A DNA stretch of 64,000 nucleotides, from contig CM065646.1 of assembly GCA_033220425.1 (NCBI GenBank), forward strand, positions 4,781,501 to 4,845,500. The letters run 5' to 3'. The number at the start of each line of letters is the position of its first letter. Position 1 is the first letter of the stretch. This document shows positions 12,890-46,572 of the stretch, piece after piece. The stretch is from Lepraria neglecta. Its lineage: Eukaryota > Ascomycota > Lecanoromycetes > Lecanorales > Stereocaulaceae. The translations under genes and the position numbers were made by a program. The notes beneath the pieces are model-generated. The model was not told the DNA's origin. It searched no databases and saw only the letters and a program-made list of their open reading frames with translations.

Positions 12890-13313
12890 TGTGCAATCAA
12901 CCTGCCAATGACAGTGATGATGGTAACGTAGGATAGAAAACCGGGAAGGGTGTTCCCTTTATCTAATCGTTACGGCTAAATACACTACCCTACGCATTTG
13001 GAGTATTTTAGTTCCAGCGCTAGGCCTTATCTGACATCCCTTCATCCATTGCATTCAATTTCGCTCACGTTCCAGCGTTCCAGAGGAATCATATAGAAAA
13101 GGGCTGTTACCTTTTCCTCTGGAACGCCTGTATTCCCTCGCTGTGCTCACTCATGGGTCTTCGACCCCCTCACTTCGTGGGTCCCCCCATTGCTCACGCA
13201 CTACAACCTCACTCTCCCTTTGAACCACTCCCTCTTTTTTAGCGGTTCACTTCTTTTACTGCCCATCTCTTCCATTCTACCTATTCCCAACTAACTCCAA
13301 CTCCAACTCCAAC
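12890..13313. other. Spacer with a hairpin and a dispersed repeat
   Basis: No gene seen. A perfect 14-bp inverted repeat, GCGTTCCAGAGGAA at 13075-13088 and its complement at 13114-13127, encloses a 25-nt loop. Sequence at 13158-13220 recurs in diverged form at 24785-24850. Confidence 0.6.
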
Positions 13314-13425
13314 TCCCTCGTTCAGTCTCCCTCGTTCAGTCTCCCTCGTTCAGTCTCCCTCGTTCAGTCTCCCTCGTTCAGTCTCCCTCGTTCAGTCTCC
13401 CTCGTTCAGTCTCCCTCGTTCAGTC
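13314..13425. repeat. 14-bp minisatellite, eight copies
   Basis: Eight perfect head-to-tail copies of TCCCTCGTTCAGTC, preceded by a short CTCCAA run. No coding frame is associated with it. Confidence 0.97.
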
Positions 13426-13689
13426 TCTCTCTAATGTTTATCTCCTGATCTCTACCCTCTTACAAATCCACAAATAATGGTCCTCTCCCAGCAGACATCT
13501 ACCTCATATCGCTCTGCCGTTGCACTTGTTTAACAAATGACTCTCCTTTCCATCACTCGTCTTTGCCCCTTGTCTTTCCAATTCCTAGCTACTCCCGTCT
13601 TCCATTGCTACCAGGTTGCTACCGCACAACATGCACGTCAACCGCCGACACCGTTCTTCCTTGCTACTCGTCACTCCTGCCGAACACGT

Positions 13690-16328: not shown

Positions 16329-16498
16329 GTGCTGGCTATTGGCTATCGGGCTCTACTTCGTGGTAGGAAGAAGTAATCCTAGTGCGATTTGCAAAAGCCG
16401 GGTTTTTGATTGGTGCTTTCATACCAAAAAGTCCCTGTTTCTAAATTACCGCTAGGATTACTTTTCCCTACCACAAAGTATATACGATAGCCAAGCAC
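16329..16498. mobile_element. Foldback (MITE-like) element of about 170 bp
   Basis: A long imperfect palindrome. The left arm (16329-16382) and the right arm (16452-16498) share GTGCT, TGGCTATCG, then TACTTxGTGGTAGG and AAGTAATCCTAG in inverse orientation, about 26 of 29 positions in the best block, with a 6-nt insertion in the left arm. The region between also pairs loosely. No coding capacity. The arm structure fits a non-autonomous DNA transposon; I could not define a target-site duplication. Confidence 0.75.
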
Positions 16499-16517
16499 AT
16501 GTATTCATCGAAATCAA

Positions 16518-16666
16518 ATGTTCAAGCCTTGGCAGAGCAGCGTCTTAGTTCGATGCTGCTCTAACAGATTCCATGCCAAGAACCTCGCCCTATCGAATCT
16601 TTTCGCGCTACGTACCTTTCTTACCTAGTAAAACGGCAAGAGATCGACATGCCAAGGCTTGAACAT
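16518..16666. mobile_element. Second small terminal-inverted-repeat element (about 150 bp)
   Basis: A perfect 17-bp inverted repeat, ATGTTCAAGCCTTGGCA at 16518-16534 and its complement at 16650-16666, bounds about 115 bp of non-coding sequence. It lies 20 bp from the foldback element and 0.4 kb upstream of the micro-exon gene. It is MITE-like in form; family unknown. Confidence 0.7.
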
Positions 16667-17024
16667 TCTTTACGAATGTAGGCGCCCAAGGATATGAGGC
16701 AACCAATCGCTCAGCAATTGCGGGGTATAATCACTCCTTTGACTCTTAGAAATGTGAATAACATCACACGAACCACCAGCGCAACCTGTTCGCTTGTCAG
16801 CTGACACTTGACCCTAGGATATATGGTTCTATGCATGGCCGGATATTGAGCGTATTCCCATTAGATACAAGAGAGCTTTAATTCTGACAGCTAGGGTTGT
16901 TTAGGACTCGAGGATAATACTTCCTTTATACTGAGCTTGCACTGTAATTCTCATCAGCGACATTGGAGTGTTATATTGTTAAATTTCTAGCGTCGAACAA
17001 TCGTTGTGATTGGTAATTCTCAAG

Positions 17025-20000
17025 ATGAGTGTAAGTGAACCTGGCTGGAGCAGAGGATATCTCTTGGTCGAACTGATAGCTAATTACTGGATGATTATAG
17101 CGAGTACGTAAATTTAGCCTGAGCAGAGGATATCTCTTTGGTTAAACTGATGGCTAATTATATTTTCTTAATAATTATAGGAAGTAAGTAAATTTGGCCT
17201 GAGTAGAGGATATCTTTTGGTTGAGCTGATAGCTAATTCTATTTTCTGGATAACTATAGGCAGTAAGTAAATTTGGCCTGAGCATAGGATATCTCTTAGT
17301 CGACCTGGTAGCTAATTCTGTTTTCTGGATAATTATAGGCAGTAAGTAAATTTGCCCTGAGCAGAGGATATCTCTTGGTCGAACTGATAGCTAATTACTA
17401 GATGATTATAGCTTGTAAGTAAATTAGGCCTGAGCATAGGATATCTCTTAGTCGACCTGGTAGCTAATTCTGTTTTCTGGATAATTATAGGCAGTAAGTA
17501 AATTTGCCCTGAGCAGAGGATATCTTTTGGTCGAACTGATAGCTAATTACTAGATGATTATAGCTTGTAAGTAAATTTGGCCTGAGCAGAGGGTATCTCT
17601 TGGTCGAACTGATAGCTAATTACTAGATGATTATAGCTTGTAAGTAAATTTGGCCTGAGCAGAGGATATCTCTTGGTCGAACTGATAGCTAATTCTGTTT
17701 CCTGGATGATTATAGCGAGTACGTAAATTTAGCCTGAGCAGAGGATATCTCTTGGTCGAACTGATAGCTAATTCTATTTCCTGGATGATTATAGCGAGTA
17801 AGTAAATTTGGCCTAAGCAGAGGATATCTCTTGGTCGAACTGATAGCTAATTATATTTTCTGGATAACTATAGGAAGTAAGTAAATTTGGCCTGAGCAGA
17901 GGATATCTCTTAGTCGAACTAATAGCTAATTCTATTTTCTGAATGATTATAGATAGTAAGTAAATTTGGCCTAAGCAGAGGATATCTCTTGGTCGAACTG
18001 ATAGCTAATTATATTTTCTGGATAACTATAGGAAGTAAGTAAATTTGGCCTGAGCAGAGGATATCTTTTGGTCGAACTGATAGCTAATTACTAGATGATT
18101 ATAGCTGGTAAGTAAATTTGGCCTGAGCAGAGGGTATCTCTTGGTTGAACTGATAGCTAATTCTATCTCCTGGATGATTATAGGAAGTAAGTAAATTTGG
18201 CCTAAGCAGAGGATATCTCTTGGTTGAACTGATAGCTAATTATGTTTCCTGGATGATTATAGTTTGTAAGTAAATTCGGCCTGAGCAGAGGATATCTCTT
18301 GGTTGAACTGATAGCTAATTATGTTTCCTGGATGATTATAGCTTGTAAGTAAATTTAGCCTGAGCAGAGGATATCTCTTGGTTAAACTGATAGCTAATTC
18401 TGTTTCCTGGATGATTATAGCGAGTACGTAAATTTAGCCTGAGCAGAGGATATCTCTTGGTTGAACTGATAGCTAATTCTGTTTCCTGGATAACTATAGG
18501 AAGTAAGTAAATTTGGCCTGAGCAGAGGATATCTCTTGGTTAAACTGATAGCTAATTACTGGATGATTATAGCGAGTACGTAAATTTAGCCTGAGCAGAG
18601 GATATCTCTTGGTTGAACTGATAGCTAATTCTGTTTCCTGGATAATTATAGGCAGTAAGTAAATTTGGCCTGAGCAGAGGATATCTCTTGGTTGAACTGA
18701 TAGCTAATTCTGTTTCCTGGATGATTATAGCGAGTACGTAAATTTGGCCTGAGCAGAGGATATCTCTTGGTTGAAATGATAGCTAATTCTGTTTCCTGGA
18801 TGATTATAGGAAGTAAGTAAATTCGGCCTGAGCAGAGGATATCTCTTGGTCGAACTGATAGCTAATTACTAGATGATTATAGCGAGTACGTAAATTTAGC
18901 CTGAGCAGAGGATATCTCTTGGTTGAACTGATAGCTAATTCTGTTTCCTGGATAATTATAGGCAGTAAGTAAATTAGGCCTGAGCAGAGGATATCTCTTG
19001 GTTGAACTGATAGCTAATTCTGTTTCCTGGATGATTATAGCTTGTAAGTAAACCTGGCTGGAGCAGAGGATATCTCTTGGTTGAACTGATAGCTAATTCT
19101 ATTTTCTGGATAACTATAGGAAGTAAGTAAATTTAGCCTGAGCAGAGGATATCTCTTGGTTAAACTGATAGCTAATTACTGGATGATTATAGCGAGTACG
19201 TAAATTAGGCCTGAGCAGAGGATATCTCTTGGTTGAACTGATAGCTAATTCTGTTTCCTGGATAATTATAGGCAGTAAGTAAATTAGGCCTGAGCAGAGG
19301 ATATCTCTTGGTTGAACTGATAGCTAATTCTATTTCCTGGATGATTATAGTTTGTAAGTAAATTCGGCCTAAGCAGAGGATATCTCTTGGTTAAACTGAT
19401 AGCTAATTACTGGATGATTATAGCGAGTACGTAAATTTAGCCTGAGCAGAGGATATCTCTTGGTTGAACTAATAGCTAATTCTGTTTTCTGGATAATTAT
19501 AGGCAGTAAGTAAATTTAGCCTGAGCAGAGGATATCTCTTGGTTGAACTGATAGCTAATTCTGTTTCCTGGATGATTATAGCTTGTAAGTAAACCTGACT
19601 GGAGCAGAGGATATCTCTTGGTTGAACTGATAGCTAATTCTATTTTCTGGATAACTATAGGAAGTAAGTAAATTTAGCCTGAGCAGAGGATATCTCTTGG
19701 TCGAACTAATAGCTAATTCTGTTTTCTGGATAACTATAGAAAGTAAGTAAATCTAATTAAAGCAGAGAATATCTCTTGATTAAACTGATAGCTAATTATT
19801 TTTTCTTGATGATTATAGGCGGTAAGTAAATCTAGTCGGAGCAGAAAATATTCTTTATTAAACTGATAGCTAATCCCTCTTTCTCGATTAAAGGATGTAA
19901 GCTATTATAGCTATAGTAGAGTGTACTTCTTGATTAAATTAATAGCTGACGTAGCCCTCTTAATGGTTATAGGAGGTAAGAGTCTTTTTCAGTGTAGTGA

Positions 20001-22244
20001 AATATCCATCTTCGCGTTTTCAAGTCACTAACGCAAGCATCTTTAATAGAGAACTCCAGCTTTTCAGTATGAATCACCAGATCTTTCAGAACTTTGTGGA
20101 AGCACAAAAGAGTTCGGGACGAAATTGGGCATTGCTAGGTCTATACCTCGTGATGGTAGAATTAGACTCGCATTCGACCTGCCCTGGCTCTGGGAATATG
20201 AAGCCAGTATGATGTCCCTTGGCCCAGAGGAAAGATTTACGTCAGAAGGGAAAGAAAAGTTACAAAAGGCCTTGAAATCCAAGATGCGGACGATTGAAAT
20301 GCTTCACGAAAAATTCCCACCATCCAGTGATTTCTGCATTTTGGATAGCGATCTCACGAACCGAGACCCTATTCTGGCAGTGTACAGACCTGGATCCAAA
20401 GACATTCAGATGCATTCAACCCAGAATGAAAGGTTAGTTCTCATGATTGCTCCGCTATAGCAAATTCTCGGTCTAGATCGGTCTAATTCACGTTGGATTT
20501 AGAGAGACACAAGACCAGAGGACTCCCAAGTCATCAAGTAATAAATGGGAAAGAGTTATGTACGTAGTACTTCAGAGGATTAAGTGATAACCATGTCACC
20601 ATCCTGACTCACCATCCTGACTTTGAATAGCTTTTGCCAAGGCCTTTCGTCGGTACTAGCTGCGGGTGGTCTTGCTCCTGAGAGACCGTTCTCTTACTTG
20701 TCTTACCTGATTGTGGGAAACTATTACAATTCGATTGACGAGACAATCAAACTTCACCTCTCTTGCTCGCGAAGGGTAGGTAGCAAGTTAGCAAATCCAT
20801 ACCACAACGTCGACAATGGTTTTCACATTACTTTTTATGAAAAGATGGAGCGGTCATCTGATAATGAAAGCTGGAAAACCGGTTACCTTTACGAGAAGGC
20901 GGATGACCCAAAAGGCACTAAGCACAATTTTCGACAGAGCGCCTTCACCGTAAGCCCCTTGCCATCAATGAATCAAACAAGTAATCACAACTAGACAGAT
21001 GTTTGCAACATCGAAAGATCTGAAGAGCGCACCCGATTCCGGCCGACAACAAACACTCGACTGCCATTGCTGGACGATTTTGCTCCTAACTCCTCCTGAT
21101 TTCTTTGCAAAGCCACTGCAGGACTCAAGAGAGGCCGACCTAGTCTGGAAGGAGATTGGGAAGCATCAGTATAAGCCTATTGCCGAGTTAACCTGCATCG
21201 TGCATGCTCTAAAAGGTGCTGTAGATCGATGGACAATACTGTATCAGTATATTGGAAACCTGCTACGTGAAGACTTCATGGACCCTAAAGCTTACGTCAA
21301 ACTCCTATTCGACGACGAGACTTTCAGTCAATCAAGGCTTTATTTCTGGGTCATTGGGTGTCTCAACGAATTTGACATTAGCATCGAAGACAATATTAAG
21401 CAATGGACACTGTTTCGAGAGGCGCGTGTTACACCATTTTTGGAAAAAGACCTGGGAGACACATCTCAGAACGGAGATTCATCTCCTGCCCCTGATGCAG
21501 AGAAAATAGAATGCCAGAAGCAGTTTCGAGCTCTCGATAAAGAAGCCGATGACCTTCGTGAGACCTTGGAGAACTGGCGACTGCAATTTCAAAACCAACA
21601 GAGAACCGTGCTAGCATTGCGTGATGGAGTGAGTTGTGTCCTGACCATCTCGTTTCTGTGTTCTCCATATCCCTCATCCATTACCAAACAAGGTCCATCG
21701 TTGACAATTCTCTTGCTGCTCAGTTATTCAATGCTAGTGCTCTCATGGAGAGCAGAGCGTCGACAAGATTGGGACAAAACGTCAAGCTGCTGACTTATGT
21801 CAGCATCTTCTATTTACCGTTGGCATTCTGCGCGGTGAGTACCTTATAATACGCTGACAATCACCCTATCCTATTTCGTTTACTCGCAAGCGCCGCGATC
21901 CGCAATATAGACCTGCCCAGATGCTGATGGACCTATAGGCACTCTGGGCCATTCCCAATATCACCGGCAGTGGTACAAGAAACCCCTTCATCATTACTGC
22001 TATCATTGTTGGCTTTGTAACATACATAACCGTCTTCAACCTCGGGAACATCGCGGAACTTTCCAGCAGAACATATCATAACCGTAGAACGAAGTTGTTG
22101 ACAGCTATGCGGAAGGACTCAGGTTGTTGGAAAGAACGGGGAGAGAAGTTTGGAGAATTCCGTCCGGATAACGATCGCAAGACACCATCTGAGTGGTGGA
22201 TAATGGTGTACCAGATACGGACATTAGTCTCGAAGATGCGGTAA
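17025..22244 (+). CDS. CorA-like two-TM membrane protein with a predicted chain of 38 one-codon micro-exons
   Basis: Predicted structure: exon 1 is ATG AGT (17025-17030); 39 introns and 38 three-nucleotide exons fill 17031-20049; the long exons are 20050-20432, 20503-20559, 20631-20949, 20999-21628, 21724-21834 and 21939-22244 (641 residues in total). The one-codon exons are all phase 0 and enter exon 20050 in the frame that stays open from there; the genomic triplet just before that exon is the TAG of the acceptor. The C-terminal part carries LFNASALMESRASTRLGQNV, a first TM (LLTYVSIFYLPLAFCAALW) and a second TM (FIITAIIVGFVTYITVF), the arrangement of fungal CorA-like proteins. The GMN selectivity motif of true Mg channels is missing after TM1, so ion transport is doubtful. 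The start of the exon at 20999 is the least certain splice site. The N-terminal chain is an inference from sequence; the CorA-like body is solid. Confidence 0.72.
17031..20049 (+). repeat. Tandem array of 39 intron-like units, each ending in a 3-nt micro-exon
   Basis: Every unit begins GTAAG or GTACG, contains GAGCAGAGGATATCTCTTGG-like sequence, a branch-like AGCTAAT (CTGAC in unit 38), and ends TATAG (AAAG in unit 37, AATAG in unit 39). Exactly three nucleotides then precede the next GTAAG/GTACG. Unit lengths without the triplet are 70 nt (9 units), 76 nt (26 units), and 77, 71, 77 and 74 nt for units 2, 37, 38 and 39. The triplets are CGA x9, GAA x8, GCA x7, CTT x6, TTT x2, and one each of ATA, CTG, AAA, GCG, GAT and GAG. 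Units 36-39 are strongly diverged inside yet keep donor, branch site, acceptor and the 3-nt spacing. Intron retention would be read for about 26 codons and hit a stop in the next unit. Confidence 0.95.
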
Positions 22245-44334: not shown

Positions 44335-46572
44335 ATGTCTTCTCTCCAGGATCTCAGCAACGAGAAATTGTCCTCTCCCGCTATCCCGAATTCCGGTATC
44401 CAAGGCTTCAATGCCTCGGAGGTTTGGGAGAGGGTAGAATACGCTGCTCCTGATATTGCCAGAGACCTCGCCTTTAAGGTGGATGCTAGGTCGAAAGACC
44501 CATTCCGATTGATAAAGGAAGTCAAAATCAAAAGGGTTGGACTTCTACCCGCTCAATTGGAACCTTTTATTGCGCTATTGCTAGCATGACATTTCTTGGT
44601 GTTTGAGAGAGTTTTCCGATGATGATTGCATAAAGGCCAAAAATTTCTCCTGGCCCATTTCAAAATACATGACTAAATCCTTGCTCTCGGAACGAGCATC
44701 CTCAAATGAAGGCATATAGGTCGATCAATTTTGCATAGACCAAGCCAATAATGACGAAAAACTCCGCACAATTGGCTTCATGGATGCGATTTACAGACAG
44801 GCTCGCCTTGTTGTTGTAGTATTGGAGGATATCGCGATTAATGAAATAGAAGAAACTTTTTTGGAAGATCTTATGGGAAATTACAACCACGGACCAGCTA
44901 AGGATCTCCGTGTACACGCTGGCTCGGCCTGCGACGCTGCAGCTCTGTTCATGAAGATCTTATCTGCCAGGTGGTTTTCTCGCACCTGGTGCAGTCACGA
45001 ATTTTTGGTCAGTGGAAATCATATATTTCTTATAAGAGTCAAACCTCGAGGCTTGGTTCCCGTTAGAGTACTCAGAATCACTGGAGCTTTCTTAGTCAGC
45101 TTAATTAGCGTTACCTTGTCATATACAAGTGTGCCTGACATCGAGGATGAGTGCCATGCTATTCTTGCAACGCGATATCACGAATCGCTGGAAACAGGCC
45201 TCCTGCGTAAATTGATGGAGCACTTGAGTCTGAATGCCCGTCTCTATCATGATGAGGGCGATTATCAAACCCTAGGATCAAGCGATATCAAGAGCTTCCT
45301 GGATGTTTTCTCCACTGCTCCAGGTTGGGAGCTTCTGTGGAAGTTGACAGGCTTATCATGACGCTCAATATTATCGGTTGTGAGCTACAGTGGCCCCGGA
45401 TACGGGATTTTGATGGGGCCTACCGCCGACGAATGAGTTTTCGCCACCTTGACTATGTTCCCAACATTTCACAAGAACAGGTGAAGCTAGACCTCTTCGT
45501 CTTTGGCAACGATACGACCGTATATAAAGCATCCAAGCTCTTAATCGCATAAGCTACTTGGTTTATTGATGGACGCATCGAGTTTTTTAAAGAGGAATCT
45601 TTCGCAATATATAAGTCAGAGGGAAGAGCATTCATTCTGCGAAGGGAAATAAATATTAAGATCGGGGCTTGTGTACTGGAGTGCGGGCGGGAATGGATTG
45701 AAAGCGGAAACACATCGAAAGGGTTTTCCTATCCTGGGCTAAGAGAAGCCTCACATACGTTTTTCTCCTATGACGCTGCGAGGTATAACTCCAAAGAGCT
45801 TTGCAGACAGAATCGAGATCAGTGCAACATTGTGACCCAAACTATTGGTAGCATGACCGAAATATATCTAGATTCATCAGACCCTGCTTGCATTCCGGTA
45901 TGGATCAAAATAGGTGCCAGTGAGACGGACAAAAGATTGATCATGTGCCCTGAGCACAGGAGGTTTACGACAGCTATTCCGGCACTTTTGTTACATAAGG
46001 AATACACCAATTGCAAGCGCATATTTCTGCTGGATTCAGTACCCGGGAGGACAGAATGCTGGAAGGTTCTCGGGAAAATAACAGCCTTTGGGGCAGATCT
46101 CATTAGTCTCATACAACACGGGCCGTTACGAAGGAGCCAGCTGCTCATGGGATAGATTTCAATGAGTTCTTACCGCCTCCAATCGCAAAAGATCATGGTC
46201 GGCATGAGTTGAATCGGAAAGTACTATTTTCCTTCGCCAATGCCTTTTCTCACCCTCCTTGGATTCAGTAACATAACTTATTTTATGGGCACTGTATCGA
46301 CAGCCTCTATCCCTTTACTCAGCTTTACCTCTCATAGCCTACGCTGGACTCTGTTTCTTTGGCTCATTCGTCGTACTGCTGGGATTTGAAACAATCGATG
46401 AAGTGCTAAAATTAGTGGCTGGAGAAGTCGACGAAGTATTTGAAATATTACTAGAAAATACAGGACTTGATGTAAAGATTGATCCTACTGTTGATGTTGA
46501 ATACGACATTGAAATGATTTCTCCCACGGGTTTCCTCAACATGGCGACTCACAACCGTGCAAAGTCGATTTA
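44335..46572 (+). pseudogene. Fossil HET-domain (heterokaryon incompatibility) gene
   Basis: Pieces of one gene are readable in order on the plus strand: the segment leading into the HET core (LLPAQLEPFIAL), the core motif DQFCIDQANNDEKLRTIGF and MDAIYRQARLVVVVLEDIAI, then RWFSRTWCSHEF, a long C-terminal region and a last acidic stretch to about 46570. It is broken by several changes, with a transition-rich pattern like RIP. HET domains trigger cell death after fusion of genetically different hyphae. The relic lies next to a Zn2Cys6 regulator gene. Confidence 0.8.

Follow-up and report, generated by a model that had tools for sequence, protein, structure and literature searches.

A CorA-like gene of the ascomycete Lepraria neglecta that likely opens with a chain of 38 one-codon microexons

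The window considered here is a stretch of 64,000 nucleotides (nt) of Lepraria neglecta (positions 4,781,501 to 4,845,500 of contig CM065646.1, assembly GCA_033220425.1), in which 38 head-to-tail units, each composed of an intron-like stretch of 70-77 nt followed by exactly 3 nt, occupy positions 17031-19975 of the plus strand. This array combines a regular anatomy, a reading frame that closes, near-invariant splice signals and hypervariable codons, and it is likely, in our assessment, that it represents a genuine and probably functional series of one-codon microexons with which a CorA-like fungal gene begins. According to this reading, which draws on the letters of the DNA, the introns would actually be spliced, the microexons would be included in variable number, and the codons, spread by tandem duplication and diversified by selection, would encode a helical N-terminal product.

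The proposed gene opens with exon 1 at 17025..17030 (+), made up of the start codon and one further codon (ATG AGT), with GTAAGT directly after the AGT and an in-frame TGA that begins 18 nt upstream of the ATG. There are 39 donors, located by the pattern GTA[AC]G, of which the first lies at 17031 and the last at 19976, and an AG plus exactly 3 nt precedes the next donor in 38 of the 38 units, as an earlier note on this DNA had described. The pattern search does not hide broken donors, because any broken donor would give a unit of double length, and there are no such units. The repeat introns measure 76 nt (27 introns), 70 nt (nine), 77 nt (one) or 72 nt (one), with the donor GTAAGT in 29, GTACGT in eight and GTAAGC in one, and with the acceptor TAG in 37 and AAG in the remaining one, intron 37. 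For example, the typical repeat intron of unit 9 (17640..17715, +) has the donor GTAAGT, a weak predicted hairpin at about 17649-17681, the branch-like GCTAAT found in the repeat units, and the acceptor TATAG, while the last unit carries GCTGAC (within AGCTGAC) in place of GCTAAT.

The count of 39 tandem introns given in the earlier note holds for the donors, but only 38 of these introns belong to the repeat, given that intron 39 (19976..20049, +; GTAAG...CACTAAC...AATAG) is ordinary and has no detectable kinship to the others, and intron 37 (19822..19893, +) is diverged and ends in AAG. The idea that intron 39 is a decayed repeat is unsupported (p 0.26 against shuffles with fixed signals), as is the idea that the 5' flank is a repeat remnant (p 0.087).

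When the triplets of the array (17031..19975, +) are joined, they read REAALALLRREIELEFLRERARERALERAFRALEKADE, with sense codons in all 38 positions, 11 distinct codons, and the residues R, E, A, L, F, I, K and D. They stand in phase 0 and share the frame of the first long exon (20050..20432, +), which is open from 20050 and has in-frame TAA TAG directly upstream, so that this part of the earlier description also proved correct. Exon 1, the 38 triplets and five further exons form a joined model of 1,869 nt, or 623 codons including the stop, that ends at 22244. The exons that follow the first long one, all on the plus strand, would be those at 20631..20949, 20999..21628, 21724..21834 (inside the CorA-like C-terminal region) and 21939..22244 (with TAA at its end), and they would be separated by introns of 198, 49, 95 and 104 nt, with splice sites inferred from motifs and frame. 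Immediately ahead of the acceptor of the 198-nt intron (20596-20622), a 13-bp sequence that includes a branch-like CTGAC is present in two copies.

The frame survives whatever the number of units, because every exon of the array is 3 nt long and in phase 0; it would equally survive the skipping of any run of microexons, or a join between any donor and an acceptor further downstream. By contrast, a single retained intron, whichever of the 39 it is, leads to a stop after 16 to 118 residues, and intron removal must therefore be exact. The unspliced frame of the ATG runs for 28 codons through intron 1 before it meets the TAA at 17109 (17025-17111).

The spacing of the units was compared with the rest of the window, on both strands, using a relaxed donor/branch/acceptor grammar in which introns were chained at a fixed spacing. 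At a spacing of 3 nt, the longest chain comprises 37 introns and lies in this array, and the only other chain of at least two is formed by introns 38-39 of the same array, which are presumably split from the others because the acceptor of intron 37 is AAG, rather than CAG or TAG. All the remaining intron-like stretches at this spacing are single (41 on the plus strand and 58 on the minus strand), and with any other spacer of 0 to 15 nt the longest chain has three introns, at 13 nt. The 3-nt-spaced array is not due to chance. The intron core, searched with up to 3 mismatches, has 36 matches in the window, all 36 of them inside the array, and none in viral contigs, which also contain no case of three donor motifs in a row at this spacing. 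In prokaryote contigs, three 3-nt-spaced donor motifs (GTAAGT) in a row occur in 25 stretches, 21 of them cyanobacterial by title, which are probably CRISPR-like arrays, judging from their regular spacing. Given these prokaryote matches, the bare motif pattern is no proof of introns.

The regularity of the array proves nothing by itself, because a tandem repeat copies whatever its unit holds, but variation is distributed unevenly over the columns of the unit. Relative to the unit consensus, the GTAxG and AG positions differ in 0 of 228 cells and the branch heptamer TAGCTAA in 0.75%, in comparison with 8.6% for the other intron columns and 52% for the triplets. Within units 1-34, introns differ pairwise by 0.083 on average and triplets by 0.594, and in the 49 pairs of introns that are less than 3% different but not identical, the triplets differ by 0.456. 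Codon position 2 is the most variable column of all, with base counts of 11, 10, 9 and 8 and an entropy of 1.99 of 2 bits, and codon positions 1 and 3 rank third and fifth in entropy. The triplet has the highest diversity among 78 three-column windows, and only 5 of 82,160 column triples, itself counted, are as diverse (5 of 39,711 when the splice-signal columns are omitted).

Similar results are obtained when the changes are counted along a neighbour-joining tree of units 1-35 derived from the introns, on which the three codon positions require 9, 15 and 5 Fitch changes, against a mean of 1.17 for the 60 non-signal intron columns, and none of the 34,220 triples of these columns reaches the sum of the codon positions. 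These comparisons are rankings and not exact probabilities, because the tree derives from the introns and the units recombine. The extra states per column, which need no tree, amount to 3, 3 and 2 for the codon positions versus an intron mean of 0.55. The type of change also differs, with 2,836 transitions and 1,041 transversions between units in the introns and 239 and 828 in the triplets (these counts are not independent); counted as alleles, there are 25 transitions and 10 transversions in the introns, and 3 and 5 in the triplets. Taken together, these figures suggest an exonic role for the triplets.

The choice of codons points in a similar direction, given that the helix penalty of the 11 distinct codons is low (p 0.004 in 20,000 draws) when compared with random draws of 11 among the 48 codons that the bases observed at the three positions allow, using Pace-Scholtz values and a capped penalty for proline and stops. 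A test of residue classes (0 in 20,000) and a hypergeometric value for the observed residue set were set aside, as that set had been picked after the data were seen. The proposal of the earlier note that the repeat array is itself the coding device is thus favoured, by inference, by the hypervariable triplets (position 2 above all), the helix bias, the near-invariant signals and the closure of the frame at both ends.

Several observations weigh against this reading or limit its reach. The absence of stops among the triplets is weak evidence, as 37% of column-shuffled sets also lack them, and the residue order lacks a robust amphipathic signal (p 0.036-0.65 for the hydrophobic moment compared with shuffled orders, using two measures and five window sizes), with a salt-bridge count of -2 that lies under the shuffle mean of 1.06; an amphipathic helix encoded by the residue order was dropped on these grounds. 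The units are linked by descent and exchange, which makes the counts non-independent, and a tree derived from the introns favours the introns. The two pairs of units with identical introns also have identical codons, and the codon variety may in part predate the introns. The AAG acceptor of intron 37 weakens the chain. In units 36, 37 and 38, differences from the consensus fall in the 13 signal columns (GTAAG, CTAAT and TAG) in 0 of 14, 1 of 22 and 2 of 29 cases (P 0.057, 0.060 and 0.062), a retention of the signals that is suggestive only.

These edge units include the most divergent of the array, unit 38 (0.32) and unit 37 (0.17), and the value of unit 36 (0.11) is not above that of several others, e.g., units 2 and 34. 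The signal changes that they do show are the acceptor of unit 37, from TAG to AAG, and the branch of unit 38, from CTAAT to CTGAC. The sequence CTGAC is a usual branch sequence in fungi.

Hints at the growth of the array come from the links between the triplets and the adjoining introns. The identity of a triplet tracks variants near the 3' end of the preceding intron (columns 55-63, 70 and 72, in which columns 55-60 share one length difference), and also the first columns of the following intron (4, 11, 14, 16 and 17). The links are strongest at columns 63 and 70 before the triplet and column 4 after it (p 0.001, which is the floor of the test; p values are uncorrected for about 25 columns per side), with few links to the centre (columns 37 and 46 before the triplet), and the distant column 57 of the following intron also passes 0.05. 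In addition, the likeness of the introns peaks at a distance of seven units (p 0.002; 500 shuffles, 15 lags tested), and the triplets seven units apart are not alike (0.14 identical versus 0.17 expected). This pattern fits a duplication of blocks of intron plus codon, with exchange within the conserved intron centres, and is less easily explained by 38 independent insertions into a pre-existing exon.

Such insertions are the core of a different history, which would lead to the same present function: one mobile intron may have inserted itself at codon after codon of an ordinary exon that encoded a helical segment, in which case the codon variety would be ancestral. This would account for diverse codons between similar introns, and introner-like elements do occur in ascomycetes; in Zymoseptoria tritici, duplications of introns other than these elements, tandem ones included, are reported to make up less than 1% of single gains, a figure that also speaks for invasion. 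However, an insertion would be required at every codon boundary, in phase 0 each time, and neither the tracking of intron-end variants by the codons (columns 63 and 70 before, 4 after) nor the likeness of introns seven units apart is expected from it, which leads us to consider this origin unlikely. Somewhat less remote is a scenario in which the introns are real but most of the microexons are skipped, through splicing of the first donor to an acceptor late in the array, which would leave the triplets almost absent from the protein. In other systems, very small exons are readily skipped, and here each skip would remain in frame, as would ATGAGT joined directly to 20050. The 3-bp exon of human RPS24, for instance, is described as included in only part of the transcripts. 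Skipping nevertheless gives no reason for the triplet to vary more than any other part of the unit, or to be biased toward helix formers. Furthermore, an intron of 3.0 kb that contains 38 complete internal sites would be unusual in a fungus, and we judge this scenario rather unlikely.

Two further explanations were weighed. If the array were a minisatellite in the promoter or the 5' untranslated region, intron-like only in its looks, with translation from a downstream start such as the in-frame ATG at 20209, its regularity would follow from the copying of any chance AGNNNGTAAGT together with the unit. In its favour are also the matches of the bare motif pattern in regular prokaryote arrays and the retention of signals in the edge units, which is suggestive only. 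The unchanged GTAxG and AG cells, set against the 8.6% of the other intron columns, the hypervariable triplets, and a frame that closes at both ends with in-frame stops just upstream all argue against it and make it quite improbable. Finally, the introns themselves could be the product, as a small-RNA array processed from a host gene in the manner of SNORD115/116, and the tandem introns with small nucleolar RNAs described in mammals offer a precedent. The intron centres are indeed well conserved, and the weak hairpin has 93.8% of its cells paired versus at most 56.9% when slid, with a covariation matched by 9 of 500 shuffles. On the other hand, changes on both sides affect just one pair of the hairpin, and the variety of pair types does not exceed that of shuffles (483 of 500 reach it). 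In the region 16900-20200, no small nucleolar RNA was found at the level of Rfam, where the single match scored 20.1 bits (E 2.8), far below the gathering score of 70. Special folding of the introns was rejected, as the ten that were folded (nine repeat introns and intron 39) have z scores of -0.80 to +1.77, none notably stable, and the support for the hairpin is mixed. A small-RNA product would also leave the variable codons unexplained, and it appears very improbable.

Returning to the chain of microexons, each short intron would be recognized singly, by intron definition, and the introns would be removed in succession, in a process resembling recursive splicing, except that one codon would be left at each step. 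The duplication of units and their recombination would keep the introns alike, and selection for differing, helix-forming residues would diversify the codons. The predicted outcome is a mixed population of mRNAs in which the number of codons varies.

The 622-residue spliced protein matches the CorA family (PF01544) at residues 454-552 with 25 bits, under the cut-off of 27 (E 1.4e-5). When it was compared with Pfam at E values up to 1, only CorA, DUF2177 and DGF-1 were found, all below the cut-off, with no NACHT or ankyrin match. Without the part encoded by the array, the protein has no match in NCBIfam, and its three matches to solved structures have E values of 0.24 or worse.

Many short exons per gene are also found in the micro-exon genes of schistosomes and the bicycle genes of aphids, although their exons are longer and their introns do not form one uniform tandem repeat, unlike those described here. 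The earlier note held that dozens of one-codon exons in a fungal gene had not been described, which is contradicted by papers on the NACHT-ANK (nank) genes of another ascomycete, Tuber melanosporum. In those genes, “tens” of 3-bp microexons (PMC3689799) or “dozens of 3 bp mini-exons” (PMC9815663) are reported, and two other papers (PMC4986451 and PMC10197012) mention codon-sized or 3-bp microexons in the same genes without giving a number there. The source is Iotti et al. 2012 (Fungal Biol 116:261), known here through these citing papers, and a paper on Xlr2 of Trichoderma virens (PMC11121469) nonetheless presents functional microexons as previously undescribed in filamentous fungi.

The arrangement of tens of 3-nt exons between short introns attributed to Tuber appears here, in the DNA sequence, as 38 triplets and 39 intron-like stretches, a likeness drawn by way of the citing papers. 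Alternative splicing is said to diversify the protein in Tuber, where the genes belong to the NLR family and the C-terminal recognition domain is said to vary, whereas the protein predicted here is CorA-like, with an N-terminal array. A search of open-access literature, in which CorA was not among the terms, found no such array outside Tuber. New relative to Tuber are the other class of protein, the N-terminal position of the putative array and, perhaps, the way in which its hypervariable codons sit between introns that are almost the same.

Tandem units that are nearly alike except for a few rapidly changing codons are likewise described for the NLRs with WD repeats of Podospora and for the zinc fingers of PRDM9, in which the whole unit is coding, whereas in the present array only the 3-nt triplet would escape removal by splicing. 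Families of near-identical introns are known in ascomycetes as introner-like elements and sister stwintrons, which are reported as scattered over unrelated genes, in contrast to the 38 tandem introns of the present gene. A stwintron, i.e., an intron nested in a splice signal of another, was rejected as a description of the array, given that its units are complete introns 3 nt apart. The Xlr2 gene offers a functional microexon in a filamentous fungus that is single and alternatively spliced, with no array. The 3-bp exon of RPS24 and the 1-nt exon of Arabidopsis APC11 indicate that exons of 1-3 nt can be spliced, again singly and with no chain, and the model discussed for APC11 is the successive removal of the two flanking introns.

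The surroundings of the gene contain other repeats. A perfect inverted repeat of 18 nt (AATGTTCAAGCCTTGGCA) at 16517-16667, with 115 nt between its arms, resembles a miniature inverted-repeat transposable element and lies about 360 nt upstream of the ATG; it is adjoined by a long imperfect hairpin at 16354-16480, with arms of 54 nt and 72% complementarity. A near-perfect minisatellite at 13313-13431 consists of 8.5 copies of CTCCCTCGTTCAGT. Among 11 other open reading frames of the window, the Pfam matches include forkhead, gamma-tubulin complex, HET, Aft1 and chitin synthase domains, in keeping with a filamentous ascomycete, and the HET match (E 3.4e-11), to a fungal domain of non-self recognition, lies in the open reading frame at 44720-45358.

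Even with the Tuber genes in mind, the array is still surprising for its length, its uniform introns, its location, and the contrast between frozen signals and variable codons. A possible, though doubtful, extension is a two-level generator of diversity, in which recombination between the near-identical introns would shuffle, add and remove single codons in the genome with the frame always intact, and alternative splicing would read subsets of them, yielding from one gene a very large number of N-terminal helical segments in a membrane protein, rather than in an immune receptor. The array could allow the fungus to alter one end of a protein by single codons. The 38 one-codon exons with uniform introns would also provide a natural test bench for the way in which the spliceosome deals with exons below its own footprint, and for whether the introns are removed in a fixed order. 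Ordinary annotation and read aligners easily miss genes of this build, and the contrast between frozen splice signals and fast codons suggests that such genes may be recognizable from DNA alone. If the finding is confirmed outside the immune receptors of truffles, arrays of codon-sized exons would be a recurring device of fungi, rather than a curiosity of one family.

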